From: a virus | IMG/VR virus record: IMGVR_UViG_3300045125_000119 | Location: 1-64,000 of that record | Reading direction: 5' to 3' (one strand) | DNA length: 64,000 bases | In this document: piece by piece, positions 8,081 through 61,707 of the stretch | How positions within the stretch are numbered: the first letter of the stretch is position 1 | How the letters are laid out: every line of letters begins with the position of its first letter | The notes under the pieces: generated by a model | What the model was told of the DNA's origin: nothing | The model's input: only the letters and a program-made list of their open reading frames with translations | The model's database searches: none | Translations under genes and position numbers: made by a program

Positions 8081-8082
8081 AC

Positions 8083-9222: not shown

Positions 9223-9223
9223 C

Positions 9224-9720: not shown

Positions 9721-9722
9721 AC

Positions 9723-10478: not shown

Positions 10479-11235
10479 AACGAACCGAAAGAAAACCCGG
10501 AGTTCACGGACATCAAGAATCAGATCAATCTTGATGAAATGGACGACTCGCAGAAAGAGTTCTGGAAGTTGATGACCACGAAAGAAGACTTGCACCCCGA
10601 TCTGGTGCCGTACCTTTGCAGGTCTTCTTTCGGCACGAAGTCTGAAGCATCCACTCTACTTCGAGATTTTCTACAGCCCTCAGTTCAACGCCAGAATCAA
10701 CAAGGTTATCTCGCCAAGAAAGAATACGTCCGAAAAACTCGAAGCCCAAAGGGGACTACTCTGGCGTTCTTGGGTTTTACGAGCGTCCGTACCGCATGGA
10801 AAAGCTGTGCGAACTACAGCACGACATGACCGACGATCAATACTGGAAAACACTCGGCTGGGTCTGGACGGATGGCGAAAACCTTTGGCAGTATAACATC
10901 ATTCTTCGGTCCATGCTCAACGCCGAGCGGCCGGGGCGGGGAAGATGATGAACGAAGAGGAACACGAGTTCCTTGCCAATCTGCCCGAATTCTTCGCAGT
11001 GTACCGGGGGCACCACAGGCGAAACCGACTTGGGTTTAGCTGGAGCCTGTCGCCGGCAAAGCCCTGTGGTTCGCCAGCCGGTTCCGACCAAAAGCGGCGG
11101 GGCGTTCTCCGGGCCACTGTGAAAAAACAGGACGTGATTGCCGTGCTGTTGGGGCGCGCTGAAGTACGAAGTGGTTGTCGATCCCAGAAATCTCACGGAA
11201 GTGAAATCCGTTCGCAAGACAAAGCGCTGGCTTGG
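10476..11235 (+). CDS. 'VYRG...GLSWSL' family phage protein (possible ADP-ribosyltransferase-like fold)
   Basis: Joined frames: MNEPKENPEFTDIKNQ, FYSPQFNARI, YWKTLGWVWTDGENLW, MMNEEEHEFLANLPEFFAVYRG, GLAWSLSPAKALWFASRF, KKQDVIAVLLGRAE, VVVDPRNLTEV. The order 'VYRG - GLSWT - A..FA.RF - G.V.K.DV - ...VVDP' is a conserved layout of widespread phage and bacterial proteins; the R, the WS/T strand and the late acidic position recall the R-S-E triad of ADP-ribosyltransferases, but that link is my inference. At least four frame breaks. It directly precedes an HD-domain gene. Confidence 0.55.
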
Positions 11236-13629: not shown

Positions 13630-13933
13630 ATTCGTCAGATCGGACCATCCTTCAGGCTGGCAAGGGTGGTTTCCGCAGGTCAAATGGGAAGACGGTCAGG
13701 TCGAAATGTTTAACGACGTGCCCGGACTTGCTGATCTGAACAAAGGTCAGCGGTTCGAGGCAATGGTCACACGAACCGCATGGAAAAACCAGTACGAACG
13801 GGGCTGGGATTTCATCAGCATGGCCGACGTGAAAGCTATTGAGCCGCTGCCGGAAATGACTGAAGAAGAGTCGAAAGCACTGTGGGACAGTATTCCATCG
13901 ACCGCTTCCCTGCCACCGGCCAGTTGGGGCTAA
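13624..13933 (+). CDS. Hypothetical protein
   Basis: ATG near 13624 overlaps the DUF5131 stop. After one indel the product reads GWQGWFPQVKWEDGQVEMF, LNKGQRFEAMVTRTAWKNQ, WDFISMADVKAIEPLPEM and ends STASLPPASWG-TAA. About 100 residues; no family recognised. It ends 28 bases before a late-promoter-like box. Confidence 0.5.
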
Positions 13934-13960
13934 AATGTTGCAAAATGGAGGTCGATAACC

Positions 13961-13968
13961 CCTAAATA
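13961..13968 (+). promoter_or_regulatory. T4-late-promoter-like box CCTAAATA
   Basis: TAAATA preceded by CC, 20 bases upstream of the ATG at 13989, in a short intergenic gap. It matches the shared xxTAAATA element found before several late-type genes in this window. Confidence 0.45.
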
Positions 13969-13988
13969 ACCAAAATTTGGGGGTAGTG

Positions 13989-15048
13989 ATGAAATTTCGG
14001 GAATGGATCACACACAACGGAGACTTGTTCTGGGAGTTCGGCGACATCAGCAAGATGGACACGTCGCACCTTTCATTTGACGAGTTGCCGTCAGATGGCG
14101 ACGATTTTGATGAAGATGACGCCTACCGAAGATTGCGAAAGCGACTTGGACTTCGATGACTCTGAATATTTCAGTGACATTTACGAAGACCCAACAGACG
14201 ACCCTAATTTTGACGCACAAACTTCTGACGATTGGGTAGAAGATAACCCCAAACCTGACGAAGACGACGAACAATTTTGGACCCCGCACACTCGTCACCC
14301 TTTGCCAATGGCTGGAGAAGAGGAAGAGGATCGAGACGAGAGGGGTACGTTCAACAAAGAAGCTTTCGATGAAGCTTTAGAAAAGTGGAAAGAAGAGTAC
14401 CGACAGGCACAAGACGACTACGAAACTGCCGAACAAGATTGGTACGCCGACATGAAACGTAAACAGCGTCAAGCAGAACGTGAGGCTGAACAGGCTCGTG
14501 ATGACGCCGTTCGTGATTGCGTAGAAGAAAAGAGAAGCGATCACGAAGAAGACCGCCGAAACAGCGGCGAAAACGGCGGGTACGAAACGTCTTTTCAGCA
14601 CGACGGAAACAACTACAGTGTAAACTTCGAGAGAGATAAATCGCAAGATTACCAAGGAGTTGAAGTTCCGGGGTTTTTCAGTATCGTCTTCACCGGACCC
14701 AAAGGAACCTCGTCCACGAAAATGGCCGGGACCGCCGCTACTGCCATTTACACTCAGTTGATGCTTGCAGTAAAAAAGCTGATCGAAATTGAACAAGTTA
14801 ACGGGCTGGGTTTCTCTCCCGCCGAACCGGGCATGGGGCTTGTGTACCAGAGGTTCTATCGTCAGTATTTGCAGCCGGGCGGGTTCATTCGTGTCGATCC
14901 GTACACATATATTCTCAAGGAATGGATCAAGAAGAACATCAAGAATTCGTACAACTTGAAGAACGCCTACAGCACGATTCTCAAGACGAACCGGGAAGTT
15001 CTGAAGAAGATAAAAGAAGTAGAAGCCGACAAAGCGCTAGATGCGTGA
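13989..15048 (+). CDS. Late phage protein with capsid-targeting-like N-terminus
   Basis: Starts MKFREWITHNGDLFWEFG, like the N-termini of four other proteins here (positions 19338, 29119, 52410, 57527), resembling T4 capsid-targeting sequences. A strongly acidic region (DDSEYFSDIYEDPTDD) and a charged coiled coil (about residues 115-175, EKWKEEYRQAQDDYE) follow; the C-terminal third is folded-looking (VPGFFSIVFTGPKGTSS, GLVYQRFYRQYLQPG). A frameshift near 14130 joins the first 45 residues to the rest. It is preceded by a TAAATA box. Function unknown; packaging into the head is inferred. Confidence 0.65.
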
Positions 15049-15498
15049 GTTCCGGCGTCTCAACAAGATGGCCGGTCAGGTTATTTCGTTCGCTCAACCG
15101 AACGGCGGCACGAGTTGGCCCGCCATCTACTTGATCGGGACCGACGAAAGCCGTTACGACGGGCCGCAGCTTCTGGTTTTGTGTACGATTCGACCGGGCC
15201 TCACAAGCAAACGTGGAAGGCGATCAGTCTGAAGGGGCAAAAACTACAAGAGCCTCAACCGCAAGAAGCATACAAACTGGTGATGCAGATATACAACCAC
15301 CGGAACGATCAGTTGATACAGAACTACATCAAACCGGGGTTGGAAGCTTTGTTGGAGAAGTACGGTGGGCACATTGAAAAATTGCTCACACCCCCATCGG
15401 GCAAACCGGCGATCCAACAGCCTGTGCAACAACCCGCACAGGAAGTTCCGGCTAACGTAGCTCAACCTAACAACAGGCAAAAACCTCCTCCTGCTTAA
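15041..15498 (+). CDS. Hypothetical protein with Pro/Gln-rich tail
   Basis: ATG at 15041 overlaps the previous stop region. The product reads MREFRRLNKMAGQVISFA, NGGTSWPAIYLIGTDESRY, then after one indel near 15165 FVYDSTGPHKQTWKAIS and ends with a low-complexity tail (PVQQPAQEVPANVAQPNN). About 152 residues. Co-directional and tightly spaced with neighbours. No family recognised. Confidence 0.55.
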
Positions 15499-15508
15499 CG
15501 GAGAAACG

Positions 15509-16006
15509 ATGGAAAAGCCACGCTTGGATTTTGTGGCAATGGTAGCCAACCAGATGATGAAGGGTCCGAATTTTGGCTGGCCCGATGCCAGCGATAAACA
15601 AAAGGAACTCTTCAAAATGCGGCACCAGAAGCAGATTGAATGGATCATTTCAATGCTGCCGAAGACCAGTGCGGCGGTGCCAGCGGTTCTCGTGAAGTGC
15701 CTCATTCGTTTTGGGCCGGAAAAGGTCATCAAATTCTGTAAGACGATCAAGAACGGATCGTTCAACGGAATTGACGATCCGGCTCACATGCTGTGGAAGT
15801 TCATGCTCGGACAGAACGGGCGTCGGGCGAATGTGGTGCAGGTTTACCGCAAGACGTGCTATGCGCTCAAGGCGTACATGGAAGACAAGCGGATCGACGG
15901 CATTCGTGAAGCCAAATCGGACATTTTCAATTGGGACGAAGACTACACCGTCCCCGACGAATACCTCGCAAACTGGAAGCCCGACGAAATTCCCCAAGTG
16001 GAGTGA
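15509..16006 (+). CDS. Hypothetical protein, intact
   Basis: A complete 165-residue frame: MEKPRLDFVAMVANQMMKG..., with helical segments IEWIISMLPKTSAAVPAVL and KVIKFCKTIKNG, and an acidic end EYLANWKPDEIPQVE. Start is preceded by GGAG (aacGGAGaaacg) seven bases upstream. No membrane segment strong enough to call. Function unknown. Confidence 0.7.
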   Translation: MEKPRLDFVAMVANQMMKGPNFGWPDASDKQKELFKMRHQKQIEWIISMLPKTSAAVPAVLVKCLIRFGPEKVIKFCKTIKNGSFNGIDDPAHMLWKFMLGQNGRRANVVQVYRKTCYALKAYMEDKRIDGIREAKSDIFNWDEDYTVPDEYLANWKPDEIPQVE

Positions 16007-17253: not shown

Positions 17254-18324
17254 TTACTGTTGAGGGATATACACCTCGGTCAGTTCCTTCTTGATCTTGT
17301 TGAGTTTAGAGACAATTTGTTCGTACTCGCTGGGGTGCAAACTGCAATTCTTGACGAGTGCCGACGTTTCGCCAACGATCCGGGCCACCGTTTGATGTAT
17401 TTCTCGGCCGATCCCTTTGACCTCATCGAGTGCAGCGGCTATGGCAGGATTTTCTGCGGGTGGTTCCGGCACCGGGTCTTCGGAAGGCTTTACAACAAGT
17501 CTGTTGCCGTCGAATTTCCAGGGTGTGCCGCCATCGGACTTCTCGACTTCATACCTCTGAACTGAGGGTGTTGGTTCTTTGTCGGAAGACTTAAAGAACC
17601 AAACCTCTTCGACCGGAAGCTCGATCAATTTTTGAGTCTGAGAAATGTTTCTGATTCCGCACTCACGCACAGCCAGTTCCCATATCCGTGGTTCGGAAAC
17701 GAAGAAAATCTGACCCAGCAGTTCACGCATATCTACAACCCACAAAGGTCGGAATCGGTTGCGGAACAGCCACAAGAGATTTTGGTTCTGGTATCGTTCC
17801 CCGATGGCGACGGCCATGTGCCCTTCGTTGATGAAGGAGAATATATCTCTGATGCCCGATAGTCGGTTATCGAATTTGTCTTCGTTGACTTCGGTGGGAT
17901 TTTCAAATATCCTGAGAAGTATTTCCGAATCACATTCGGATTGCACCTCGTATTTTTGCTTGAGAGTTTGGTATTCGTAGTCTTCGATGCGGCCGTTGTG
18001 AATGAGGCCGACGGACTTATCGAAACTGACGAACGGATGGTTGTTTTTGTTGCATTCAGGCTCGCCCACGCCTTTGGAGGCGGCTCGTGCGTGAACGAGC
18101 ATGATCGAAGGGTTCAATTTAGCGACTTTGCGCCACACGTCTTTTTTGACGAAATGGCTGCTGCGACAGGGTTCCTTGTGATACACGATTTCGCCGGTCT
18201 GGGTGCCCCAGAATCCGGCGGCATCGGCACCTCTGATTTCACTTTTGTCGAACAGCTTGGTGATTAACTGATACGTCATCACTGGCTTTTTCGACTCGCC
18301 GATAAACCCACTGATACCACACAT
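17254..18324 (-). CDS. Class II glutamine amidotransferase
   Basis: Intact 356-residue frame starting MCGISGFIGESKKP: Cys2 is the catalytic N-terminal nucleophile of class II (Ntn) amidotransferases. EIRGADAAGFWG, VHARAASKGVG and GLIHNGRIEDY follow as in GlmS/PurF-type glutaminase domains. There is no second synthase domain; instead the C-terminal 130 residues are Pro-rich then helical. So ammonia would be passed to another protein, unknown here. The start ATG overlaps the stop of the upstream gene. Similar stand-alone amidotransferases occur in large phages. Confidence 0.85.
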   Translation of the reverse strand: MCGISGFIGESKKPVMTYQLITKLFDKSEIRGADAAGFWGTQTGEIVYHKEPCRSSHFVKKDVWRKVAKLNPSIMLVHARAASKGVGEPECNKNNHPFVSFDKSVGLIHNGRIEDYEYQTLKQKYEVQSECDSEILLRIFENPTEVNEDKFDNRLSGIRDIFSFINEGHMAVAIGERYQNQNLLWLFRNRFRPLWVVDMRELLGQIFFVSEPRIWELAVRECGIRNISQTQKLIELPVEEVWFFKSSDKEPTPSVQRYEVEKSDGGTPWKFDGNRLVVKPSEDPVPEPPAENPAIAAALDEVKGIGREIHQTVARIVGETSALVKNCSLHPSEYEQIVSKLNKIKKELTEVYIPQQ

Positions 18325-18796
18325 CAGTCTTCCCCGTCTTGTTCGAGCGCCTCTTTTCGATCCCTGAACGACTTACCGAACACTTCTTCGATAAGGGTCC
18401 AGTCTCGCTTACAAATCTGGTCCCATTCTTCGGGCGACGGAGAAACAGGTTCGCCAAAATGTTGCTTGATGAACTCGTCGCACTTTTTCAATTCTTCTTC
18501 CGTAACCGGTCCCTGCCAGTACCGGTGGCCGGGAATCATCGCATCTTGTCTGGCTTCGTCTTCGTACATTTGCGGGTACAATCTGAGAGCCATGTCACCC
18601 AAAATCTTCAGATCGTGTAGCAAACCACAGGTACAAGGAGCATAGCGATACACTTCCATACTGCGGTGAGTTTCACAATCGCCGTGGTGAACCAAATCCC
18701 CTTCCGGGTGCTTTGTATTCGGTCGATAATACCTATCCCGAATCGCTTCGAGGCGGGTACGCATTTTTCTACGTTGTAGTCCCAAATCTTCTTCAT
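18324..18796 (-). CDS. Hypothetical protein
   Basis: ATG at 18796 overlaps the TGA of the preceding gene (ATGA), giving MKKIWDYNVEK; one frameshift at about 18763 leads into RTRLEAIRDRYYRPNTKHP, CETHRSMEVYRYAPCTCG and an acidic C-terminus EEVFGKSFRDRKEALEQDG. Cys/His residues (HHGDCETH, CTCG) could bind zinc. The stop overlaps the amidotransferase start. Function unknown. Confidence 0.6.
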
Positions 18797-30099: not shown

Positions 30100-31531
30100 T
30101 TAGAAATCAATACTTTCTTTCACCACTACACTGTGCCCTTGTTCTTTCAGAATCTTGATGCGTTTCTTCGAGTGGTCTTCTAGGTAGTCGTTGATTTTGA
30201 ACAGGAAGTCGTAATATTTGAGCATATCTTTGTCGTCGGCGGTACGAAGCCCACGACCCATCCGCTGAATAATCTGGTGATCTGCCTGACCCCGGCCGCA
30301 TTGATTAAGTTATGCACCTTGACGTTGATGCCCAGTGTTGAAAATCTGCTGGGTAGCAATTGCAACAACGTTTCCCTTCGCCTTCTGCAACTTGTGGATG
30401 ACGCCTTTGCGGGTAGCCGCATCGTCTTTGCCCTGAACCCAGAGGGAGCCGGGAAGCATACTGTGTAAAGCGTCCCCGTGGGCGACACGATCAACCAGAA
30501 TAAGTGTGCGGCCCTTCTGGAGTTTCGTGAGTCTTGTAACGACCTGATGGAAATAGTAGCTCTCGGCGATCCCACGGGTCACGGCATCCATGTAGATGTC
30601 GTGGGGATCATCGGTTCCTCAATCGGATAGAAGAAGCACTCCGAAGCGGCCAGAATTCCCCGATCCTGCAAATCCTTGGTAGTAAGAATGCCGGATTCGG
30701 TGGCGTCGGTCTTGAGTACAGGGCCGAAGAAGCCCTTGACGTAAAACTTCTGAACCTGATCTGTTTCGCCGAACTTAAATGGAGTGCGCTCAAGGCCATG
30801 CGGACGGAACACGACTTGAGCCGCCGATATGTGGCTTTGGGCATGGCCGACATCATATCGTGAATTTCGTCCACGATAACCGCTCGGTATTTGTGCAAGT
30901 CCTTTTCGATCTTGCCAATCGAGGCAATGTTCGCCACGGTGATCGTGTCCGGCTGGCAGAATCCGCCCCACAACCCGCCGACGTTCTTGAACCCCCAATT
31001 CCTGATTTCGTTCGTAGTTCTGTTGAGCCAAAGCTACCCGATTCTGCAAGACCAGTGTCGGACAATCCTGGGGAGAGCCTTGAGAAGCGCCGACCATGAT
31101 GAACGTCTTGCCCGCCGACGTGGGGGCGTAGACGACGCCCCGGTGGTGCTTCGTGATCTTGTTGATGAAGTCCACTTGGTAATCGTGAAGCTTAACCTTG
31201 TCGGCGTTGGGAGCGATCCACTGATTAAGGAAGTTCTCGTCAATGTCGGTGAAGCGAAAATCAACCCTGTTACGTTCGTCGGATACTGTATAAGAAATGT
31301 CCCATTTTTTGAGGGCGGCACGCACTTCGGGAAGCAAGCCGGTGAGAAACTTCCCTGTTTCCATTTTGAAAAATTCTGTGTACCCGTCCCACAACTTCAT
31401 CTTTGTACCGACGATTGTGAAAGTAATTGCGGCTCTCGAAAACGCAACATAGTCCACAACCGGTGCATGATATTGATGTTGTCACAGGTCAAATACGAAT
31501 AGTCGTTACTGATTTTGAGGTGGCTGGACAT
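30100..31531 (-). CDS. UvsW-like DEXH helicase, frameshifted
   Basis: Starts MSSHLKISNDYSYLTCDN. The N-terminal region and the motor core match T4 UvsW: VKLHDYQVDFINKI (Q motif), YAPTSAGKTFI (motif I), AVIVDEIHDMM (motif II, DEIH), TLILVDRVAHGDAL, QRMGRG-like motif VI near 30260 and a C-terminus ending EQGHSVVVKESIDF. About 475 residues. UvsW-type helicases unwind branched DNA and switch origin- to recombination-dependent replication. Frame breaks near 31400, 30990, 30760, 30600 and 30310. The first 26 bases overlap the small basic gene at 31506-31655. Confidence 0.85.
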
Positions 31532-32288: not shown

Positions 32289-32607
32289 ATGGACATAGAA
32301 ACTGAAACATTACAAGGCCAAAATAGGAAGTTAAAAGCCCAATGGACCGTAGAAGCGGCCCAAGACTTGGCCGCTTCTTTCACGGCAACGCCGAGAAAAG
32401 AACTGGCAGAGGTATTGGCACAGGAAATTAACGCCGAGATAGATCGTGAGATATTGGAAGACTCGCGGCGGTCTGCACAGGAAATTAACGCCGAGATAGA
32501 GATCGCGAGATATTGGAAGACTTGCGGCGGTCTGCCCAAGAAAAGGAAGCCGCCGCAAAGAAAAAGAAGAAATATAGGAGCATTGACGACCCGTGGGACG
32601 CCGAATG
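32289..32607 (+). CDS. Stand-alone gp23-like (major capsid) helix protein
   Basis: MDIETETLQGQNRKLKAQW, TVEAAQDLAASF, ELAEVLAQEINAEIDREIL, EDLRRSAQEKEAAAKKKKK, ending YRSIDDPWDAE. The part 'RKLKA.W(T/S)VE.AQDL......EL...LA.EI.AEI.REI' matches a stretch of T4-type major capsid protein gp23, here in a protein of about 90 residues (105 as sequenced because of an internal duplication). It may be a capsid decoy, assembly factor or relic. A frameshift lies within the duplicated part. Confidence 0.6.
32429..32548 (+). repeat. Tandem duplication of about 59 bp
   Basis: CAGGAAATTAACGCCGAGAT begins at about 32429 and again at about 32488; the two copies continue nearly identically through GAGATATTGGAAGACT(C/T)GCGGCGGTCTGC, differing by a two-base insertion (ATAGAGATCGCG against ATAGATCGTG). 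Copy two restores the frame used at the gene end. Confidence 0.75.
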
Positions 32608-32608
32608 A

Positions 32609-33403: not shown

Positions 33404-34330
33404 TAAGTCTCCGGCAATGAAACAAATGATCTATGTCTCTGTTATTTATCGTCCTAAAAACGAATTTCGGCACCGGATTGGGTTTTGGTTTCCGATTTAC
33501 AATGGACTTAAACCTGTTGTTTACGCTCGCTCGTGCAATCGCCGCTGGCGGTGTAAGGAAGCTGGCGAAGGATGAACAACGTAAGTTTTCCAGAAATATC
33601 GAGAGACACCATAAGCATCAGAACTTGCAATAGATTGACCGACTGCCGTTTTAGCAGATGCACCAACAGCCGTCGCTGTGCTGTCCGCTGTGGCTGTACC
33701 TTCACATTGCAAAGCTGTAAACGTAGAAGAAACTGCTGTGCTGTCCGCTACAGCCGTACCGACAAATGTAGCTGTTGCGGCAAGCGATCCCGTTGCCGTA
33801 CTGTCCGCTGTAGCCGTTCCGACCAAATGCAGAAGCACAGAGCTAGTGCCCGTTGCGGTGCTGTCCGCTGTAGCCGTACCGATGACCCCGGCTTGTCCCG
33901 TTGCGGTGCTGTCCGCTGTAGCCGTTCCGACGAACGCAGCTGTTGCGGCAAGCGATCCCGTCGCCGTGCTGTCCGCTGTAGCCGTTCCGACAAATGTAGC
34001 TGTTGCGGCAAGCGATCCCGTTGCGGTGCTGTCCGCGGTAGCCGTTCCGACAAATGTAGCTGTTGCGGCAAGCGATCCCGTTGCGGTGCTGTCCGCTGTA
34101 GCCGTTCCGACAAATGTAGCTGTTGCGGCAAGCGATCCCGTTGCGGTGCTGTCCGCTGTAGCCGTTCCAATGACCCCGGCTTGTCCCGTTGCGGTGCTGT
34201 CCGCTGTAGCCGTTCCAATGACCCCGGCTTGTCCCGTTGCGGTGCTGTCCGCTGTAGCCGTTCCGACAAATGTAGCTGTTGCGATTAAGACACCATCTGC
34301 GGTGCTATCGGCATGGCTAAACCTTCTCCT
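33396..34330 (-). CDS. Virion-type repeat protein (TATADSTATG repeats)
   Basis: About twelve tandem copies of GTATADSTATGSLAATATFV or the variant GTATADSTATGQAGVI, then a unique end ASAKTAVGQSIASSDAYGV, PPAAIARASVNNRFKSIV, HLFHCRRLNG. Such alanine/threonine beta repeats occur in phage tail or spike proteins. The start was probably ATGGCCGATAGC with one base lost near 34316 (MADSTADGVLIATATF). The repeat DNA is also open on the other strand, which I treat as a shadow because neighbouring structural genes and the unique end are on the minus strand. Confidence 0.55.
33700..34290 (-). repeat. 54-60 bp tandem repeats
   Basis: Units of about 60 bases (or 42 for the GQAGVI variant) such as GTTGCGGTGCTGTCCGCTGT plus AGCCGTTCCGACAAATGTAG are almost identical from copy to copy; four adjacent 60-base copies lie at about 33915-34150. 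Confidence 0.8.
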
Positions 34331-34399
34331 TGACCTTCTGACAATTAGAAGGCCCGAAGAAGAAATCGGGCAGACCTCAGAAATGGGAAATGAGCCAAT

Positions 34400-34428
34400 G
34401 GACATGGAGGTATTTATCCTCCATGTCC
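34400..34428 (-). promoter_or_regulatory. 11-bp inverted repeat with GATAAATA in its loop
   Basis: GGACATGGAGG (34400-34410) and CCTCCATGTCC (34418-34428) are a perfect 11-bp inverted repeat; the seven-base spacer plus flank spells GATAAATA on the minus strand. Lies between the double methyltransferase gene (ending 34444) and the repeat gene. It could be a late promoter whose activity is changed by a cruciform, or a hairpin ending the upstream transcript. Confidence 0.5.
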
Positions 34429-36079: not shown

Positions 36080-37121
36080 AGATTGTTCCCGAGGTCCGAG
36101 TAAAGATCACGGACTCTTTTCCCAAGTGTACTTTCTCGCATTTTCTTGAGCGGCAACACCTTGAGCCGCCAAACCAAGCCAGGTCCGATTTATACTTTTG
36201 AATAGCACTTACAAGCAGTTCGGGGTTACAACTTTGTATTACAGTTCCAGCTTCTATCTGCCTATCTCAATCGGAAGCTCCTGCTCCTCTCGCAAGAAAC
36301 AACCGGACGACCGTGGGCCATTGCTTCCAATATTTCGATTCCGGAACCCTTTTTCGGTTACGCTCGGTTGAACGTAAACCGAGCAAGCGTTGTAAAGTTG
36401 AGACGGCGACCGAACGAATCCGGCCAAATGTATTGCGCCGCCGCCCTCACGACGTGCCAAATCCAGTAAGGTAGGAGTATTTCTGATCCGGCTTTATAAT
36501 CAGTTGCGAATCTTTAGAAGAAAGCAATTTCCAAGCACGAATCAAATAGATCAATCCCTTATCTGGACCGGGTTGTCCCAGATAGCCCACTGTGAAAACT
36601 TTGGTAAAGGTGTTGCTTTTGTGACGGGTTCACATCCGTGTGGGATAACTGCCAAACGTTTGTTGCATCTTCGTAACTTGCCATCACTTTCTTGCTGTGT
36701 GTTGACGGACAAATTACAACATCTGCGTCAGAGATTAGCCTTGAACGTACTTCTGGAAGAGAATAGGATCGTTTAGGTGAGGGTAATCAAAAGACAGCCC
36801 TAACTTCTCGTACTCTTTCTGCTTAAATTGATGTCGTGAGCCGCAGCGGTATAGGTAATCTTGACTCCGTCCAACTTGAGAGCTTGGATCAATTTGGAAT
36901 AAGTGCCAGCATAAAAATGAGCGACACTTCGACCGGGGACCATAAGATGCCGGTATTCATTATTGTGAATTCCAAGTGCAATTTCGTCGGCAGCAAACGG
37001 GTCCGGCATGGGGGGCGGATTGATGACAAAAACCGCTCGGCATGGCCTTCAATTCGTTGGCAGTTACAACGCCACCGCCAGTTTCGGTCCCAATAGTATC
37101 AGAAGTCACAAACAGGTGCAT
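36076..37121 (-). CDS. GT4-family glycosyltransferase, frameshifted
   Basis: Starts MHLFVTSDTIGTETGGGVV, the glycine-rich first loop of GT-B enzymes, then VINPPPMPDPFAADEIALG, and the nucleotide-sugar-binding half: VFTVGYLGQPGPDKGLIYL, RAWKLL, AIHLAGFVRSPSQLYNACS, VQPSVTEKGFGIEILEAMA (E-x7-E motif region) and HGRPVV. It ends VRDLYSDLGNNL with TGA overlapping the next gene. About 345 residues. At least seven indels break it, so residue-level claims are limited. Confidence 0.62.
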
Positions 37122-40717: not shown

Positions 40718-43700
40718 TCACATGAAAGTACCAGCATTCAACAACGGCAAACCAGAGGTACAAGGATACCCAGGTTCGACATAAAACTGACCGCTGTGAG
40801 TCGCTATCCCTAGACACTGGCATACGGCACCAGATATGTTGGCAACACCACCGAAGCCGCCGGACAAGAATCCGCCAGAAATGTTGCCTACAAATCCAGA
40901 AGCGTTGACCCAAACCGGACGCCCCGGTCGAATAAGGTTCAAACCACTGGCCGGTGTGACTATGCCGTTCACAACAAATTCAACCACTTGTCCCGACAAC
41001 ACACCGGGTCCGTCATAGTAACCCAAAGCGGGCATTAAACCTGACAATGTACTTTGAGCAATTCTGGCATTCCCGGTGTTGTCTACACAAACAGCACGAC
41101 CACCAGAAATTGTTCCAAAAGCAGTAAGCCTTACGACCTGCCTTTGTGACATCGGATAGCCCTGATAGTTCAGGCCGGAAGCAAACATACCAGAAGAAAT
41201 AGACCCGGAGCCAACAACTCCAGACAAGCCGGTCGGGGGAGCGGCCCATGTGAAGTCGTCTCTCAAGAAACTACCGCCCGTAGGAGTTCCTGTAGTTCCG
41301 AGTCGGCCCGAAGTAACGGCCCCCGAACCAATGTGGAACGAACCAACTTGACCGGATGCGATATTGCCCGAAGTAACGGCCCCCGATGAAATGTGGTTGG
41401 TGCCAACTTGACCGGATGCGATATTACCGGACAAGATTTGACCAGAACCAATATCGAGTGAGCCGATTGTACCGGACGCAATATTGTCGAACGTGCCGAT
41501 GCTACCTTGAACAGAACCGGTTGCAATATGAGTAGAACCGATCTGACCGGATGCGATTCTGCCTGAAACAATTGCCCCCGAACCAATGTGGAACGAACCA
41601 ACTTGACCGGATGCGATATTGCCCGAAGTAACGGCCCCCGATGAAATGTGGTTGGTGCCAACTTGACCGGATGCGATATTACCGGACAAGATTTGACCAG
41701 AACCAATGTCAAATGTACCAATGGTCCCAGAAGCAATATTGTCAATAGTGCCGATGCTACCTTGAACAGAACCGGTTGCAATATGAGTAGAACCAATCTG
41801 CCCAGATGCAATGTTGCCAGACAATACCAAAGATGCAACGAACGGCAAGGACGCTGCAATCCCCATCATCCCGCCACCGCTGTTCAAAGCATATCCAATG
41901 GGCTGTATAACGTCGCCCGATAACAACCCGCCGGAGTTAAATGATCCAGAAGTAGTGACTATTTGACCGGACCTACCAACAAACAAAGATTGACCCAAGT
42001 ATCCCGAAAAATCGACCAAACCAGAAGTAAACTGGAATGCTCCGGCCGTATAAACATTAGCTGGAAGACCTGACAGAGTATTCTGGAACACTACGCCAAC
42101 GGCTGGCATACGACCAGAAACAGACGCCATCGCAATTCTGATGTTGCCGGATTGAGACAAACATACAGCCACACTGCCGGAAACAATTTCTTCCGTCAAA
42201 GCCGTCCATTGTGTTCCACTCACAAACGGAGCGGCGAACTGAGCCTGAGACACATGGGCACCGCTGGCGAAGTCAAAATAACCAACAGTCCCCGAACTAA
42301 TGTGTCTAGTAGTTCCGAAATAACCCTGAACCGTACCGGATGCTATTTTCCAGAACCAATACCACCAGAAGTAACACCGCCACCAGCAGCAGCCCATGTA
42401 AAGTCGTCCCGAAGGAACAATGTTCCGTCAGGAGTACCAGCAATGTTTATGTGCCCCGAAGTAATTGCGTTAGGCGCAAAATCGAACGATCCTATTGTTC
42501 CAGAGGCAATATGTCTGGTGGTTCCGTAAAAACCTTGAACCGTACCGGATGCTATTTTTCCAGAACCAATACCACCAGAAGTAACACCGCCACCAGCAGC
42601 AGCCCATGTAAAGTCGTCCCGAAGGAACAATGTTCCGTCAGGAGTACCAGTAACACCCAAACGGCCACTTGTTACAGACCCGCTTGCTATGTGGACATTG
42701 CCAACTTGTCCCGATGCAATCCTACCTGAAACAATTGCCCCCGACCCGATGTCGAGGTGACCCGATTGTACCGGACGCAATGGTAAATGCGCCACCACCG
42801 GCTTGTCCGAGTACAGCACCGGACCCGATATGGCCTGAGTTGACTGCACCGGACGCATGATGGAATTGACTTATAACACCTGACGCAAGTGTGCCTGATT
42901 GTACGGAAGCATTGGCAAGATGTCCGAAGCCAACTTGCCCGGAAGCGATCTTGCCCGAAACTACTGCACCGGAGCCAATTGTAGAAGCTTGAACCGATCC
43001 GTCGGCAAGGTGTCCAAAGCCAACTTGCCCCGATGCAATTCTGCCAGAAACGATGGCACCCGACCCGATGTCGAGTGACCCGGATTGTACCGGACGCAAT
43101 GGTAAATGCACCACCACCGGCTTGTCCGAGGACGGCACCGGACCCGATGTGGCCGGAGTTAACAGCACCGGACGCATGGTGGAATTGGCTTACAACACCT
43201 GATGCGATGGTGCCGGAAGCAACGGAAGCGTTAGCAAGATGGCCGAAGCCAACTTGACCGGAAGCGATCCTACCTGAAACAATTGCCCCCGACCCAATGT
43301 CGAGTGATCCGATTGTACCGGACGCAATGGTGAAAGCGCCACCACCGGCTTGTCCGAGTACAGCACCGGACCCAATGTGGCCTGAGTTAACAGCACCGGA
43401 CGCATGGTGGAACTGGCTTACGACACCTGATGCAAGAGTGCCTGATTGTACAGAAGCATTAGCAAGGTGTCCGAAGCCAACTTGTCCAGACGCAATCCTA
43501 CCTGAAACGATGGCCCCCGACCCAATGTCGAGTGATCCGATTGTACCGGACGCAATGGTGAAACGCTACCACCGGCTTGTCCGAGGACGGCACCGGACCC
43601 CATGTGGCCGGAGTTGACTGCACCGGACGCAAGGTGGAATTGGCTTACAACACCGGATGCGATGGTGCCCGAAGCAACGGAAGCATTAGCAAGGTGTCCG

Positions 43701-46700
43701 AATCCAACTTGTCCCGATGCAATTCTACCTGAAACGATGGCACCCGACCCGATGTCGAGTGACCCGATTGTACCGGACGCAATGGTAAATGCACCACCAC
43801 CGGCTTGGCCGAGTACAGCACCGGACCCGATGTGGCCTGAGTTAACAGCACCAGAAGCGAGGTAAAACTGGCTTACGACACCGGATGACAAACCGCCACC
43901 AGCAGCAGCCCATGTAAAGTCGTCCCGAAGGAACAACGTTCCGTCAGGAGTACCAGTAACACCCAAACGGCCACTTGTTACAGACCCGCTTGCTATGTGG
44001 ACATTACCAACTTGCCCGGAAGCGATCTTACCTGAAACTACTGCACCGGACCCAATTGTAGAAGCTTGAACCGATCCGTCGGCAAGGTGTCCGAATCCAA
44101 CTTGCCCGGAAGCAATTCTACCTGAAACGACCGCACCGGAGCCAATTGTAGAAGCTTGAACCGACCCGTCGGCAAGGTGTCCGAATCCAACTTGTCCCGA
44201 TGCAATTCTGCCTGAAACGACCGCACCGGAGCCAATTGTAGAAGCTTGAACCGACCCGTCGGCAAGGTGTCCGAATCCAACTTGCCCGGACGCAATCCTA
44301 CCTGAAACGACCGCACCGGACCCAATGTCGAGTGATCCAATCGTACCGGACGCAATGGTAAATGCGCCACCACCGGCTTGGCCGAGTACAGCACCCGACC
44401 CAATGTGGCCGGAGTTGACTGCACCGGACGCATGATGGAATTGACTTACAACACCGGACGCAAGTGTGCCTGATTGTACAGAAGCGTTAGCAAGGTGTCC
44501 GAATCCAACTTGACCGGATGCAATCCTACCTGAAACGATGGCACCCGACCCGATGTCGAGTGACCCGATTGTACCGGACGCAATGGTAAATGCACCACCA
44601 CCAGCTTGTCCGAGAACGGCACCGGACCCCATGTGGCCGGGTTAACAGCCCCAGACGCAAGGTGAAACCGACTTACGACGCCGGACGCAATGGTGCCAGA
44701 AGCAACGGAGGCGTTGGCAAGATGTCCGAAGCCAACTTGTCCAGACGCAATACTGCCTGAAATTACATTCCCAGAACCGAGTACAAATCCACTGACATTT
44801 GGATAATTCAGTTGGATAAGGACAGCGCCCACTATTTGCAGCAACTCCCAATGGCTGCAATATATCACCTGACAACAACCCGCCGGAGTTAAATGATCCA
44901 GAAGTAGTGACTATTTGACCGGACCTACCGACATACAAAGAAGTCCCGATATAGCCTGAGTAATCAGCCAATCCAGAAGACAACTGAGAGAATCCAGCCG
45001 TATAAACATCAGCCGGAATACCGCTTGCAACAGAATCAAACACAACACCAATGGCTGGCATCCGAGAAGGAACCGAAGCCATAGCAACAAGCAAATTGCC
45101 GCTTAAAGACAATGCAACGGCACGACCACCAGAAACTATTTCTTCAGTAAGAACGGACCAGTTGGTTCCACTAACAAATGGTGTTAAAAATTGGGCACGA
45201 GGGGCAGTTGCTCCTGATGCGAATTTATAGGTACTTACAACACCTGATGCGATGGTGCCTGACTGTACAGAAGCATTGGCAAGGTGTCCGAATCCAACTT
45301 GCCCGGAAGCAATTCTACCCGAAACGACCGCACCGGACCCAATGTCTAGTGATCCGATTGTACCGGACGCAATGGTGAAAGCTCCACCACCGGCTTGGCC
45401 GAGTACAGCACCCGACCCGATGTGGCCGGAGTTAACAGCACCGGACGCATGATGGAATTGGCTTACAACACCTGATGCAAGAGTGCCAGAAGCAACGGAA
45501 GCATTAGCAAGGTGTCCGAATCCAACTTGCCCGGAAGCGATTCTACCCGAAACGACCGCACCGGACCCAATGTCGAGTGATCCGATTGTACCGGACGCAA
45601 TGGTGAAAGCACCACCACCGGCTTGTCCGAGTACAGCACCCGACCCGATGTGGCCTGAGTTGACTGCACCAGACGCATGATGGAATTGGCTTACAACACC
45701 TGATGCAAGAGTGCCAGAAGCAACGGAAGCATTAGCAAGGTGTCCGAATCCAACTTGCCCGGAAGCAATTCTACCCGAAACGACCGCACCGGACCCAATG
45801 TCTAGTGATCCGATTGTACCGGACGCAATGGTGAAAGCACCACCACCGGCTTGTCCGAGGACGGCACCGGACCCGATGTGGCCTGAGTTGACTGCACCGG
45901 ACGCATGATGGAATTGGCTTACAACACCTGACGCAAGTGTGCCTGATTGTACAGAAGCATTAGCAAGGTGTCCGAATCCAACTTGACCGGAAGCGATCTT
46001 ACCTGAAACTACTGCACCGGAGCCAATTGTAGAAGCTTGAACCGATCCGTCGGCAAGATGACCGAATCCAACTTGACCGGAAGCGATCTTGCCCGAAACT
46101 ACTGCACCGGACCCAATTGTAGAAGCTTGAACCGATCCGTCGGCAAGATGACCGAATCCAACTTGCCCGGAAGCGATCCTACCCGAAACGACCGCACCGG
46201 ACCCAATGTCGAGTGATCCAATCGTGCCAGACGCAATGGTAAATGCACCACCACCGGCTTGTCCGAGGACGGCACCGGACCCGATGTGGCCTGAGTTAAC
46301 AGCACCAGAAGCGAGGTAAAACTGGCTTACGACACCGGATGACAAACCGCCACCCGCAGCAGCCCATGTAAAGTCGTCCCGAAGGAACAACGTTCCGTCA
46401 GGAGTGCCGGTAACACCCAAACGGCCACTTGTTACAGACCCGCTTGCTATGTGGACATTACCAACTTGTCCAGACGCAATCTTACCAGAAACTACTGCAC
46501 CGGACCCAATTGTAGAAGCTTGAACCGACCCGTCGGCGAGATGGCCGAAGCCAACTTGCCCGGAAGCGATCCTACCCGAAACGACCGCACCGGACCCAAT
46601 GTCTAGCGATCCGATTGTACCGGACGCAATGGTGAAAGCTCCACCACCGGCTTGACCGAGGACGGCACCGGACCCGATGTGGCCGGAGTTAACAGCACCG

Positions 46701-49700
46701 GACGCATGATGGAATTGGCTTACAACACCTGATGCAATGGTGCCAGAAGCAACGGAGGCATTGGCAAGATGTCCGAATCCAACTTGCCCGGAAGCGATCT
46801 TGCCCGAAACTACTGCACCGGAGCCAATTGTAGAAGCTTGAACCGATCCGTCGGCAAGGTGTCCGAATCCAACTTGTCCAGACGCAATCTTACCTGAAAC
46901 TACTGCACCGGAGCCAATTGTAGAAGCTTGAACCGACCCGTCGGCAAGATGTCCGAATCCAACTTGTCCAGACGCAATTCTGCCCGAAACAATTGCCCCC
47001 GACCCGATGTCGAGTGATCCGATTGTACCGGACGCAATGGTAAATGCACCACCACCGGCTTGGCCGAGGACGGCACCGGACCCGATGTGGCCGGAGTTAA
47101 CAGCACCGGACGCATGATGGAACTGGCTTACAACACCTGATGCAATGGTGCCAGAAGCAACAGAGGCGTTGGCAAGGTGTCCGAATCCAACTTGCCCGGA
47201 TGCAATCCTACCCGAAACGATGGCACCGGAAGAAATATGGAAAGAACCAATTTGCCCAGAAGCAATATTGCCTGAAAGGACAACACCGGAACCAAGAGTC
47301 AGACCCCCGCTAATATATTGATTTCCCTAGTCCAATTAGAGCGCCGCCGCTGTTGTTCGGCACGCCTAATGGCTGCAATATATCTCCCGATAGGAAACCG
47401 CCTGAGTTAAACGATCCAGAAGCGGTAACTATTTGACCAGACCTACCGACATACAATGAATTCCCAACATAGCCTGAGTAATCAGCCAATCCAGAAGTAA
47501 ATTGCACCACTCCTGCTGTATAAACATCGGCGGCAATGCCACTGGCTACGTTATCAAACACAACTCCGATAGCTGGCATCCTGCTTGGAACTGAAGCCAT
47601 AGCAACGAGCAAATTGCCGCTTGGGGACATTGCGACGGCACGACCACCAGAAATATTTTCTTCGGCCAATACCGTCCAAGCCGATCCACTTACAAAAGGT
47701 GCAGCAAACTGCGATCTTGTAGTTGCTGTGCCACTTGCTATTTTGTATGTTGAAATTTGACCAGATGCAAGGTGTCCAGCACCAACTTGTCCCGATGCGA
47801 TCCTACCTGAAACGATTGCTCCCGACCCGATGTCGAGTGATCCAATCGTACCGGACGCAATGGTGAAAGCTCCACCACCGGCTTGGCCGAGTACAGCACC
47901 GGACCCGATGTGGCCTGAGTTAACAGCACCGGACGCATGGTGGAACTGACTTACGACGCCTGATGCAAGAGTGCCGGAAGCAACAGAGGCGTTGGCAAGA
48001 TGTCCGAAGCCAACTTGTCCCGATGCAATGGTGCCTGATTGTACGGAAGCATTGGCGAGATGGCCGAAGCCAACTTGCCCGGAAGCGATCCTACCTGAAA
48101 CGATGGCACCCGACCCGATGTCGAGTGATCCAATCGTACCCGGACGCAATGGTGAAAGCTCCACCACCAGCTTGTCCGAGGACGGCACCGGACCCGATGT
48201 GGCCGGAGTTGACGGCACCGGACGCATGGTGGAATTGACTTACGACGCCTGACGCAATGGTGCCTGATTGTACGGAAGCATTAGCAAGGTGTCCGAAGCC
48301 AACTTGACCGGAAGCAATGGTGCCTGATTGTACGGAAGCATTAGCAAGATGACCGAAGCCAACTTGCCCGGAAGCAATTCTACCCGAAACGACCGCACCG
48401 GACCCGATGTCGAGTGATCCAATCGTACCGGACGCAATGGTGAAAGCACCACCACCGGCTTGACCGAGGACGGCACCGGACCCGATGGTGGCCTGAGTTA
48501 ACAGCACCGGACGCATGATGGAACTGGCTTACAACACCTGATGCAAGAGTACCTGACTGTACGGAAGCATTGGCAGGGTGGCTGACCAACTTGCCCGGAA
48601 GCAATTCTACCCGAAACGACCGCACCGGAGCCAATTGTAGAAGCTTGAACCGACCCGTCGGCAAGGTGTCCGAATCCAACTTGTCCCGATGCAATTCTAC
48701 CCGAAACTACTGCACCGGACCCAATTGTAGAAGCTTGAACCGACCCGTCGGCAAGGTGTCCAGAGCCAACTTGCCCGGAAGCAATTCTACCCGAAACGAC
48801 CGCACCGGACCCGATGTCGAGTGATCCAATCGTACCGGACGCAATGGTGAAAGCTCCACCACCGGCTTGGCCGAGGACGGCACCGGACCCGATGTGGCCG
48901 GAGTTAACAGCACCGGACGCATGATGGAATTGGCTTACAACACCTGATGCAAGAGTGCCAGAAGCAACGGAAGCATTAGCAAGATGTCCGAATCCAACTT
49001 GCCCGGAAGCAATGGTGCCTGATTGTACGGAAGCATTAGCAAGATGGCCGAAGCCAACTTGCCCGGAAGCAATGGTGCCTGATTGTACGGAAGCATTAGC
49101 GAGATGGCCGGAGCCAACTTGACCGGATGCAATCCTACCTGAAACGATGGCACCCGACCCGATGTCTAGTGACCCGATTGTACCGGACGCAATGGTAAAT
49201 GCGCCACCACCAGCTTGTCCGAGGACGGCACCGGACCCGATGTGGCCGGAGTTGACTGCACCGGACGCATGATGGAATTGACTTACAACACCGGACGCAA
49301 GAGTACCTGACTGTACGGAAGCATTGGCAAGGTGGCTGAAGCCAACTTGTCCCGATGCAATCCTACCCGAAACGATGGCACCGGAAGAAATATGGAAAGA
49401 ACCAATTTGCCCAGAAGCAATGTCGCCACTGAAATACTTACCTGGGACAATTCCTTGAACGCCAAAAATGGCACCGCCGCTATTTTTTACAGTGCCAATA
49501 GGTTGTACTATTCCACCCAACTGCCCAGATGCAGTAGAAATATCACCAGAAGCACCAACATAAAGTTGTTGTCCAGTATAACCGGAGAAATCTACTTGTC
49601 CACTTCCGAACTGAACGGGACCAGTAGTGTATACATTGACATTTTGTCCGCTGGCAACATTATCGAAAGCGACGCCAATGGCTGGCATACGTCCCGAAAC

Positions 49701-56731: not shown

Positions 56732-57299
56732 CAGATGTATCTTCCCTTGCCGTATAAAAGAAGCTGTTTATCGAAGTCGGTCGCCATGCTGTTCAGACGA
56801 ACGCCACACTGCTCGCACGCCAATTCCCAAGTGTTGGCGTCGAGGTCGATATCGCCCAGATTTTTGGCAATTTCTTGCTCTTTAGTCTCAATGGCATACA
56901 AAAATTGGTGAAAACTCATCACGTCTTCATAGCCGACTCCGTCTTCGAGTTCGAGACTGCAAAGCACAGCCAAAGTATAATTCGACTTGATCCGATTGTA
57001 CAGATCAGTCGGGGAATATCCGGGTGCGCCTTGCCGGTAATGTGATATTGTTCGGCAAAACCGTGGCACTGCGAACACAGGCTGATGCCGTTCTCTTTGA
57101 CGTACCCGCCCCACGGCATTAGCGTGCGGTCTGTGACGTGGTGGGCGTCGAGAGGCGCAGCGGACGGGATTTGCTGTGGGTGTTCGTAATACGAAGCCCA
57201 AGCCTCTTTCGACGGCTTCCAGCCGCACATTGCGCAGCAGTGATCGTCCCGCTCGTAACAAGCGTGTCGGAATTCGGCACGGACATTTTTCTTGCTCAT
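56731..57299 (-). CDS. HNH-type endonuclease-like protein
   Basis: ATG at 57299 overlaps the upstream stop (ATGA). MSKKNVRAEFRHACYERDD, HCCAMCGWKPS, LDAHHVTDRTLMPWGGYVK and NGISLCSQCHGFAEQYHIT give the C-x2-C / HH / N / C-x2-CH core of zinc-containing HNH nucleases. After a shift near 57025 it continues DVMSFHQFLYAIETKEQEI and ends ATDFDKQLLLYGKGRYI. The C-terminal helical half is not a known specificity domain. Could be a free-standing homing or DNA-processing nuclease. Confidence 0.7.
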
Positions 57300-57505
57300 G
57301 ACTGTTCCCATTCGTCGTCTATCGACCGATATTGTTTCACCTTTGTTTTCGGCAGGGGCAGTTCGCCGGTCCCGCCACAGATGGAACAATCGTAATGATA
57401 TTCGCCGCCCAAACCCGCCTCGTACCATCCGTCGCCGTTGCACACCGGGCATTTTTGCATTACTTCTAAGATACTCCGAACCTTGCCCCTATTTTCACCA
57501 CTCAT
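57296..57505 (-). CDS. Small zinc-ribbon protein (DnaJ-type CxxCxGxG)
   Basis: 69 residues: MSGENRGKVRSILEVMQ, then KCPVCNGDGWYEAGL and YDCSICGGTGELPLP, two C-x2-C-x-G-x-G halves as in the DnaJ zinc domain, and a tail KVKQYRSIDDEWEQS that resembles the end of the gp23-like protein at 32607. Its TGA overlaps the HNH start. Might bind unfolded protein or nucleic acid; unproven. Confidence 0.65.
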   Translation of the reverse strand: MSGENRGKVRSILEVMQKCPVCNGDGWYEAGLGGEYHYDCSICGGTGELPLPKTKVKQYRSIDDEWEQS

Positions 57506-57506
57506 G

Positions 57507-57514
57507 TCTAAATA
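57507..57514 (+). promoter_or_regulatory. Late-promoter-like box TCTAAATA
   Basis: TCTAAATA 12 bases upstream of the ATG at 57527, with GGGGGG between. Lies across the start of the divergent zinc-ribbon gene. Confidence 0.45.
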
Positions 57515-57526
57515 TCCGGGGGGACC

Positions 57527-57867
57527 ATGAAGAGAAAACATTCAGAGAATACGTCGAAACTATTGACGCTGCCGCAAAAGCAGCATGGGACGCTCAACGG
57601 CGAGCAGAGGCGAGCGCACGGGATCGTCAAAAGAGCCAAGAACGTCGCAACTGGATCAGAGACAACAACGTAATCGTCAATACGGCCGAACCCGGTGCGT
57701 GGTTCAAATCACTCAGCCCGCAACAGCAACAAGAACTTTGGATGTTGGCAAAAAACACCGAAGTCAACCAAATTCCGCTGCCACCGTCTTGGGTCACGCC
57801 GGACCAAAGAGTGGCATTCAAAAAGGTCATACAGGCTATGCAGAACCAATTGGAAAAAGCCGCTTAA
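57527..57867 (+). CDS. Late protein with capsid-targeting-like N-terminus
   Basis: ATG 57527 gives MKRKT after one base is removed near 57540, then FREYVETIDAAAKAAWDAQ, RRAEASARDRQKSQERRNW, IRDNNVIVNTAEPGAWFKS and IPLPPSWVTPDQRVAFKKV, ending QNQLEKAA-TAA. The opening 'FREYVE' matches the other targeted-looking proteins. The middle is a charged helix. About 112 residues. Its stop shares TTAA with the convergent small gene. Function unknown. Confidence 0.55.
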
Positions 57868-60500: not shown

Positions 60501-61166
60501 TCATTTCACCATTACGAAATCATTCGTCTTATCGTCGTATTTTCCGATGAGACGAACTTCGGTAACGGCCTCTTTATCCCAAATGACACCAGAAGCACAG
60601 TCCCACCCGTAGTACCAAATCGACTCCAGTCGTTTAGACCACAAATACGGCACGATTTCAACCCCGCCGTACTTCTCGGCCACACGCCCGTAATCAATAT
60701 AACTCGTGAAGTACCGGCCGGAGCGAAAATACGGCGACGGGGCGTCGATTGACCGATATTTTCTGCCGTTGTGTTCTTTGTCGTACATGGCCTCCAAATA
60801 TTCCGGTACACCGTGATACTCGTCCTCGAACGCCTCAAACTCTTGTTCGTTACTGATCCGCAAGATTTTGGACTCATCGACCAAAATCTCGTAAACGTAG
60901 GGCTGGAACCAATCGTGCATGGACTCGCCACGACACCATTCCAGCCAAGAATCATTAAAACCGTACCAGAAAGAGCAGTGATCGGTGCCGCCTCGTTCTC
61001 GCACTCTCATGCCCGGTTTCATTTCTATGCCCGGCTTCGGCATATCCAAAAGTGTCAGGTCGGGAACGTTGGTGATGTGAATGCGGCGCAACGACTTCCA
61101 ACGTCGCATTTTGGCAATCAGCTTGCGACTGGCGACGACCAATTCCATCTCATGAAGTGGAGGCAT
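60501..61166 (-). CDS. Conserved phage protein, ADP-ribosyltransferase-like candidate
   Basis: Intact frame. Start at ATG 61166 (MPPLHEMELVVASRKLIAK) or further upstream. HITNVPDLTLLDMPKPGIE, GTDHCSFWYGFNDSWLEWC, YVYEILVDESKILRISNEQ, EYHGVPEYLEAMYD, GRVAEKYGGVEIVPYLWSK and WYYGWDCASGVIWDKEAVT follow the layout of a widespread phage and actinobacterial family ('GLW.S.....W.EWC ... ILRI ... WYYGWDCASG'). I suspect an ADP-ribosyltransferase-type fold, by inference only. 220 residues. A terminator stands upstream at 61183. Confidence 0.6.
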   Translation of the reverse strand: MPPLHEMELVVASRKLIAKMRRWKSLRRIHITNVPDLTLLDMPKPGIEMKPGMRVRERGGTDHCSFWYGFNDSWLEWCRGESMHDWFQPYVYEILVDESKILRISNEQEFEAFEDEYHGVPEYLEAMYDKEHNGRKYRSIDAPSPYFRSGRYFTSYIDYGRVAEKYGGVEIVPYLWSKRLESIWYYGWDCASGVIWDKEAVTEVRLIGKYDDKTNDFVMVK

Positions 61167-61182
61167 GAATAATTCCAAAAGA

Positions 61183-61224: not shown

Positions 61225-61323
61225 AGATACTCAGGACATTATCGTCCCTCAATCGGCCCGAAGATGCTATCTTCGGGGGAGTTCTGTCCAAGGAAGGGCA
61301 TTCTGACCATGTGGAGCAAAAGA

Positions 61324-61707
61324 TTACTTTGCGGTGCCCACGCCCATCAGGTAAAGGATGGCAGTCGAGGGATTGTTATCCTCTTCGGCCAACATTTCTG
61401 CTGCTTCTGTGACGGCGATTAGGTCAATGTCAGTAACCCGAAGCCCGTCAACGATTCCCGTCACAATCGCCGGTGAAACCGGAAAAGTGTTGAAATCAAA
61501 TTTCGACAAGAGGCCCGTCAACTCCAGAACCGTCAGCGGTTTGCTCTTGCCGGTACGGTCAACGTCGATGAACGGGTGCCCGTCGTGCGTAGTTTTTACG
61601 AGAACAACGGGCATAGCATCCAGATCGCCGCCCACGTCGGTGTAAACTTTCACCGACGAATTGTCGTTGAACGAACTCAGCCGGGCCACAAGCTGAGTCG
61701 TGTTCAT
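61324..61707 (-). CDS. Hypothetical protein, intact
   Basis: 127 residues: MNTTQLVARLSSFNDNSSV, KVYTDVGGDLDAMPVVLVK, TTHDGHPFIDVDRTGKSKP, LTVLELTGLLSKFDFNTFP and a helix AVTEAAEMLAEEDNNPSTA. Looks like a small alpha/beta 'helix then D-x-E-V strand' phage protein. The upstream gene ends about 20 bases before. No function assigned. Confidence 0.6.
   Translation of the reverse strand: MNTTQLVARLSSFNDNSSVKVYTDVGGDLDAMPVVLVKTTHDGHPFIDVDRTGKSKPLTVLELTGLLSKFDFNTFPVSPAIVTGIVDGLRVTDIDLIAVTEAAEMLAEEDNNPSTAILYLMGVGTAK

Follow-up and report, generated by a model that had tools for sequence, protein, structure and literature searches.

Why would a phage keep a short piece of its major capsid protein as a gene of its own? 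The question is raised by a small gene in the window, the whole 64,000-nucleotide stretch of DNA analysed here, which is part of a virus record of 146,164 bases (G000). The original prediction described the product as a protein of about 90 residues closely like a segment of the T4-type major capsid protein gp23. Comparison with related phages places the gene in a conserved set of small genes of a huge-phage clade. Each of these genes, here called shards, encodes a single uninterrupted stretch of the major capsid protein, and about half of them end in a usually basic linker followed by a common tag. The tag, its recurrence on shards and other proteins, and the shards that tile gp23 in relatives had escaped the original prediction.

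The capsid-protein shard of the window

The shard gene lies on the plus strand, starts with the ATG at 32289, and encodes MDIETETLQGQNRKLKAQWTVEAAQDLAASFTATPRKELAEVLAQEINAEIDREILED... (Table 1). A gp23-like peptide outside any capsid gene had been predicted, and the profile search against gp23 families proposed for checking it returns a match: the shard aligns to about positions 136-202 of the 376 positions of Pfam PF07068 (Gp23) with an E-value of 1.9e-14 and 54.3 bits, clearing the curated cut-off of 24.4 bits, and it matches PHROG 138, 'major head protein', with an E-value of 4.8e-14. A profile of the window shard and its relatives (alignment A2) finds T4 gp23 residues 249-316 among solved structures with an E-value of 6e-16, a match that is partly built in because A2 has a gp23 segment beside its seven shard rows; the T4 vertex protein gp24 is a poorer match (E 1.5e-6). 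The shard is not a full-length HK97-fold chain, as 66 of the 376 profile positions are matched. It corresponds to 65 of the about 478 residues of gp23 in the clade, forms a separate gene with its own tail, and does not include the E-loop, insertion domain, A-domain, or C-terminus. The predicted structure of an isolated window-type shard (the G006 copy) is one long helix, with pLDDT of about 90 there and pTM of 0.35, and has no globular fold. A model of whole gp23 is poor (pLDDT 47) and was left out of the shard mapping.

Table 1. Features of the window, with coordinates in the 64,000-nucleotide stretch
Feature	Coordinates	Strand	Basis
uvsW-like helicase, frame-broken; conserved divergent neighbour of the shard gene	30103..31403	-	comparison with relatives
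Capsid-protein shard, 65 codons, about Gp23 profile positions 136-202	32289..32483	+	profile matches
Imperfect tandem repeat, unit 57-59 bases, 2.2 copies	32418..32543	+	repeat analysis
Tail: linker, lysine run (32558-32572), YRSIDDPW (32573-32596), DAE, stop (32606-32608)	32508..32608	+	third frame
Another tag carrier: protein of 81 aa, two CxxC pairs, C-terminus KVKQYRSIDDEWEQS	57296..57541	-	sequence
YRSIDAP, internal imperfect tag copy in a 240-aa ORF (60501-61223)	60738..60758	-	motif scan
Possible further shard, weak match to gp23 C-terminal region (EFCPRKGILTMWSKRLL), no tag seen	61258..61329	+	E 0.001-0.002

The reading frame of the gene is broken. The second copy of the tandem repeat carries a two-base difference that shifts the frame, and the tail, read in the third frame, is EKEAAAKKKKKYRSIDDPWDAE, with the C-terminus YRSIDDPWDAE. 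Of the predicted protein of about 90 residues, the 65-residue gp23 stretch is real, but the raw frame gives no clean 90-residue product, and the predicted end of the gene at 32607 fits a reading of the tail in the third frame and no other. The repeat is absent from the orthologues L254, L290, L291, and L293. Because frame breaks occur elsewhere in G000, for example in the neighbouring helicase, the repeat and frameshift may be a sequencing or assembly error rather than natural. Elsewhere in the window, the minus strand encodes highly repetitive proteins (STATG..., SGAIVSGRIASGQVG...) at 33521-34405 and 40721-48239, which are probably fibre or surface repeats.

The place of the gene is conserved. 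A shard divergent from the uvsW-like helicase is found in G000 and in seven other records, for example in G001 (helicase at 451898-453343 on the minus strand, shard from 453411 on the plus strand) and in G006 (helicase at 44448-45893 on the minus strand, shard from 46019 on the plus strand). The helicase is a single 481-aa ORF in G001 and is split over two frames in G000. Among 50 uvsW loci fetched, six, including that of G001, have a window-type shard just upstream of uvsW on the opposite strand, and these are the loci with the helicase closest to that of G001 (69% or more); L292 and L295 nearly duplicate L291 and L294. The part of G011 that was read showed no uvsW. In a tree of the segment, built from about 60 columns with long branches and without L291-L294 and L367, the shards of G000, G001, G006, and G011 cluster together (support 0.96) and not with the gp23 of any one phage. 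The window-type shards of L291-L293 end in another lysine-rich tail; those at L291:2592-2882 and L293:2557-2868, beside uvsW, have the tails VTWNSLFD and VSWSSVFDDF.

Shards in related huge phages and selection on them

The fullest set of shards is that of G001 (IMGVR_UViG_3300049215_000771, 532,729 bases). It has an intact 478-aa gp23 at 338843-340279 together with seven separate shard ORFs, which correspond to gp23 residues 1-58, 45-102, 257-310, 316-368, 307-415, 400-440, and 436-463 and are 36-78% identical to it; the E-loop and insertion region, residues ~103 to 256, is without one. In five of the seven, YRSIDDPW is followed by just two to six further residues and stands mostly behind a K/R-rich linker, a share with a chance probability of 4e-6 (hypergeometric, on a rough 809-gene set). 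Of the remaining two, the N-terminal shard is untagged and the other bears the tag close to its own N-terminus. An intact gp23 is present not only in G001 but also in G002, G004, G006, and G009, and a split capsid gene needing trans splicing is therefore rejected.

Further shards occur in G002, G004, G006, G009, G011, G012, W01 (LR756511.1), and the contigs L291, L293, L294, and L367. Counting partial gp23 matches with an E-value of 0.001 or better, in frames of <400 aa outside the gp23 gene, gives 26 shards in 13 records, 14 of which are tagged. Shards per record, with tagged ones in brackets, are G000 2 (1, across the frameshift), G001 7 (6, one near the N-terminus), G002 1 (1), G004 2 (1), G006 2 (2), G009 2 (1), G011 1 (0), G012 1 (0), W01 2 (0), L367 3 (2), and L291, L293, and L294 1 (0) each. 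By gp23 region, the tag is on 7/9 C-half shards, 4/8 of the P region (the window type), 2/4 of the A region, 1/1 of the E region, and 0/4 N-terminal ones; the RSIxD-type tag is absent from 12 of the 26, including all four N-terminal shards. The count leaves out two gp23-like paralogues of 337-358 aa (L414), a weak match in W02, the near-identical contigs G010, G026, G018, L292, and L295, and matches to the insertion domain only, of which there are three in W01 and one in G000. These last are ORFs at W01 306665, 125926, and 430481 and at G000 128829 that share about residues 129-252, as if the insertion domain travelled alone. Also left out is a tagged, frame-broken piece of G000 at 97.37-97.42 kb (L004), a two-frame stretch that resembles gp23 residues 428-446 (only E 0.1) and is followed by YRSIDDPW.

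A C-half shard lies ~4-11 kb from gp23 in G001, G002, G004, G006, G009, and L367, and a further one in G001, like the C-half shard of W01, lies far from it. When C-half shards from six records are aligned, all six end in the tag, with differing linkers. The sole longer gp23-like gene found in G000, at 110.5-111.5 kb (L005:6500-7500), is diverged, frame-broken, and 30-38% identical to the gp23 of the clade. From its sequence it seems to be without the E-loop and insertion region, and in the seven relatives checked its pieces match gp23s and one shard only.

The shards differ from gp23 and from one another more at synonymous than at nonsynonymous sites. For four of the seven G001 shards, set against the gp23 of that phage, pS is 0.75-0.99 and pN 0.13-0.33; among six window-type shards the values are 0.62-1.07 and 0.20-0.49; and between the window copy and other shards and gp23 they are 0.73-0.98 and 0.32-0.49. 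For gp23 itself, G001 against G004, dN is 0.087 and dS 1.3. The shard ratios are imprecise, as the sequences are short and pS is near saturation. Since synonymous sites are near-saturated and the protein sequence is kept, the shards are old genes under protein constraint, looser than that on gp23 itself. It is thus extremely unlikely that they are decaying, functionless fragments of duplicated capsid genes. The pieces are short, they are absent from some relatives, and the window copy is frame-broken, all of which would suit decay; against it stand the open frames in other records, the conserved place and tag, and the low pN against near-saturated pS, whereas a decayed fragment has neither protein selection nor a conserved place. 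The reading is largely refuted already. A remnant of capsid duplication, one of the roles first proposed for the window gene, is right as to ancestry but not as to decay, given the kept place beside uvsW, the grouping in the shard tree, and pN below pS. The window gene may yet act as an assembly regulator or as a competitor of a related phage's capsid, the other two roles first proposed.

The C-terminal tag and its carriers

The form of the tag, from 57 C-termini, is [Y/W/H/F]-R-S-I-D-D-[P/E/D]-W, and about three of the eight residues preceding it are K or R (about 2.9 K+R). It also emerges from a count of C-terminal four-residue words that was not prompted by the tag and in which expected numbers are derived from internal sequence. 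In G001, RSID is observed 36 times against 1.5 expected, SIDD 30 against 0.9, and YRSI 22 against 0.7, so that tag words are among the most enriched and most frequent C-terminal words; they do not stand out in the other records given the identical test. A loose form of the tag ends 39 of 5,422 G001 ORFs of 35 aa or more, and a similar rule selects 39 of 4,768, including at least one chance hit. A loose motif scan finds 52 places, compared with 11-23 when each of ten shuffled motifs is used; because this margin is small, reliance is placed on the C-terminal tests and on exact patterns. Searched as a DNA pattern, Y-R-S-I-D-D is present 23 times in G001, five in G000, twice each in G002 and G004, and once in W02; it is absent from the other 22 of 27 records, two of which, G006 and G009, have variants, and the reversed pattern occurs in none of the 27. 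Variants on shards are PRSINDDW and HRSITDPW in G006, RFRDLDDDW in G009, and YRSIDDEW and RRTIDDFW in L367. A tag-like ending is found on 2 of 1,757 ORFs in G006 and 1 of 2,120 in G009, all three being gp23 shards, and the reversed C-terminal motif on none in either. In W01 the reversed control has three hits and the motif itself none, and the motif is also found on apparent chance ORFs (2/18 in G001, 1/2 in G004).

The tag is mostly C-terminal. Among 31 copies taken within 40 residues of the C-terminal end, 30 have a stop <=13 residues after RSIDD; a few copies lie near an N-terminus, one of them on a shard. Over the 31 copies every Arg codon and every Ser codon (six each) is used, at roughly genome usage, and two codons are skewed: Ile is ATT in 16 of 31 (30% in the genome) and the first Asp is GAC in 26 of 31 (56% in the genome). 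Because the Arg and Ser codons vary freely, selection on the tag acts mainly at the peptide level, and a DNA element is rejected.

Scanned for exact matches to the YRSIDDPW pattern, IMG/VR returns 13 stretches, eight in G001 and one each in G002, G004, and L046, the remaining two being copies of one sequence without the RSI core. L046 has a 168-aa ORF ending YRSIDDPWEPVEYFAED, and it may belong to the same phage group because it shares a sample number with a contig bearing a 90% identical gp23. Encoding of the tag by the host was rejected: a scan of a prokaryote genome collection (84,980 species) gives five exact pattern matches, none of which is the peptide RSIDDPW. In the open-access literature, neither capsid shards nor the tag are described among the matches listed, and the text RSIDDP has zero matches.

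The carriers of the tag go beyond capsid pieces, and G001 alone bears it on about 40 proteins. For example, a truncated paralogue of the prohead protease (238157-238627, PHROG 207, E 1.5e-15) ends in the tag, the main copy of the protease lying at 337220-337906. Three other G001 carriers are related to single-stranded DNA-binding proteins (SSB): a tag-ended SSB-like protein (36315-36992, PHROG 1192, E 1.8e-4), a tag-ended protein with no PHROG (13759-14031) that is linked by BLAST to SSB-like proteins of W01 and G000, and a protein with the tag near its N-terminus (18099-18464, PHROG 1192, E 3.8e-5). The last looked by eye like a VWA protein, which was ruled out, as PHROGs and alignment make it an SSB-like piece. 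G004 has a tag-ended, truncated SSB-like protein of 236 aa, with an untagged 343-aa SSB-like protein elsewhere in the record, and a tag-ended 155-aa piece related to a 424-aa protein that is ParB-like by a reading of the sequence, with no database hit. Since 5 of 20 tagged G001 proteins match any PHROG family at the thresholds used, origin from a core protein is undemonstrated for most tagged proteins.

Possible roles of tagged capsid pieces

We give about an even chance to the reading that shards are two-part mimics, with a core-protein piece that would serve as bait and a shared tail that would serve as an address. The capsid piece would bind whatever normally binds gp23, and the tail would bring the bound complex to a common partner or place. 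Because the isolated shard is predicted to be a single long helix (pTM 0.35), a window-type shard probably acts by docking on something that recognises its gp23 face; candidate partners are another gp23, the scaffold, a chaperone, or a host sensor. Our leading guess as to their use, which goes a step beyond mimicry itself, is protection or regulation in the infected cell, in which shards would soak up a factor, such as a host sensor or an assembly partner, that recognises core proteins. An address is the best reading of a tail that unrelated proteins have in common, and its occurrence on truncated proteins related to the prohead protease, to ssDNA-binding protein, and to a ParB-like protein fits a general scheme of bait and shared address. 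Against mimicry stand the 12 untagged shards, both of those in W01 among them, the 22 of 27 records without the exact pattern, a tag enrichment that is outstanding in G001 only, the skewed Ile and first-Asp codons, the near-N-terminal tag of one shard, and the many tagged proteins that match no PHROG family. The 'bait', judged by the predicted structure, may also be merely a helix.

Three narrower proposals are special cases of mimicry, and their probabilities overlap with its own. It is tentatively possible that shards are decoys for host immune sensors of the capsid protein, SSB, and other core proteins, the tail serving to sequester or dispose of the sensor. Bacterial defences do recognise capsid proteins and, in the case of Gol, a short segment of one: CapRel is triggered by the major capsid protein of a phage, and Lit is activated by the Gol peptide of T4 gp23 (PMC9712102). 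There the segment triggers defence from within the capsid protein, whereas shards are separate tagged genes. The tagged set holds both capsid and SSB-like pieces, and the G001 shard of residues 45-102 aligns to T4 gp23 residues about 86-134 (numbering shifted by 65 to the precursor), which we take to include the Gol region. A decoy, however, must bind its sensor without activating it, an ability that is putative for shards, and most tagged proteins searched are without a known relative. Somewhat unlikely, in our judgement, is a role as head-assembly cofactors, in which shards would dock on gp23 or scaffold and regulate, cap, or nucleate the lattice, the tail binding the prohead core. The pieces do come from gp23 itself, a tagged prohead-protease paralogue exists in G001, and a C-half shard is near gp23 in six records. 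In addition, a 191-aa G001 protein (57538-58113; L055:17538-18113) directly upstream of the shard of residues 45-102 ends with a copy of the C-terminal peptide of the scaffold gp22, DDLLILSGVK. On the other hand, the same tag is on SSB-like and ParB-like proteins, for which we know of no head role, and two C-half shards, in G001 and W01, are far from gp23. Starts of the form M..F.E[FW], which presumably resemble the T4 capsid-targeting signal, sit on other proteins of the same genomes (9 ORFs in G001, 17 in W01, 15 in G004, 7 in G006, and 6 in G009). A tail that directs proteins to a phage compartment or replication site, where capsid shards would tether capsids, is unlikely, although one tail on many unrelated small proteins and the basic residues ahead of the tag are consistent with it.

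Known proteins with short shared signals offer further comparisons. The capsid-targeting signal of T4 is N-terminal, and the tag lies mostly at the C-terminus. The nearest parallel to the tagged set is nevertheless the internal head proteins of T4, which are varied small proteins with only one short peptide in common (PMC3012670). G001 likewise has one short peptide on different small proteins (39 of 5,422 ORFs); the tag differs in its mostly C-terminal place and its sequence, and in being carried by capsid pieces. The C-terminal peptides that bind the T4 sliding clamp gp45 consist of lysines followed by S-[LI]-x-D-x-aromatic. The tag is alike in both respects and presumably resembles the C-terminus of RB69 polymerase, and the L293 tail has SWSSVFDDF. 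A clamp-binding tail, suggested by a look at the motif, is nonetheless very unlikely, being unsupported by domain searches and by polymerase C-termini: no PolB (PF00136), gp45 C-domain (PF09116), or DnaN domain (PF02767) is found in G000, G001, G004, G006, G009, and W01, several of which are fragments; the gp45-type clamp domain PF09116 is found in 0 of 7 records, some of them fragments; and the Pol III alpha C-termini of W01 and G004 are without the tail. As a separate observation, Pol III alpha of G004 is encoded by two ORFs (8053-10758 and 14595-15968) separated by about 3.8 kb, which may be an intron or intein.

To our knowledge, no phage system has been described in which pieces of the capsid protein are kept as separate genes under selection, many of them end-tagged, with the tag on dozens of other proteins. 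Returning to the two-part mimic, its widest form is more doubtful than the mimic itself: a genome-wide kit in which pieces of the phage's own hallmark proteins (capsid, prohead protease, ssDNA-binding protein, and others), as separate genes, share one C-terminal address that would take them, together with whatever recognises them, to one fate. If true, such a kit would give the phage a means of counter-surveillance or self-regulation made of its own targets. If mimicry holds, the shards would show what bacteria or phage machinery recognise on capsid proteins and would provide ready-made small reagents. The tag itself is a sequence handle on many huge-phage proteins that have no family, and finding its reader may place the whole set at once.
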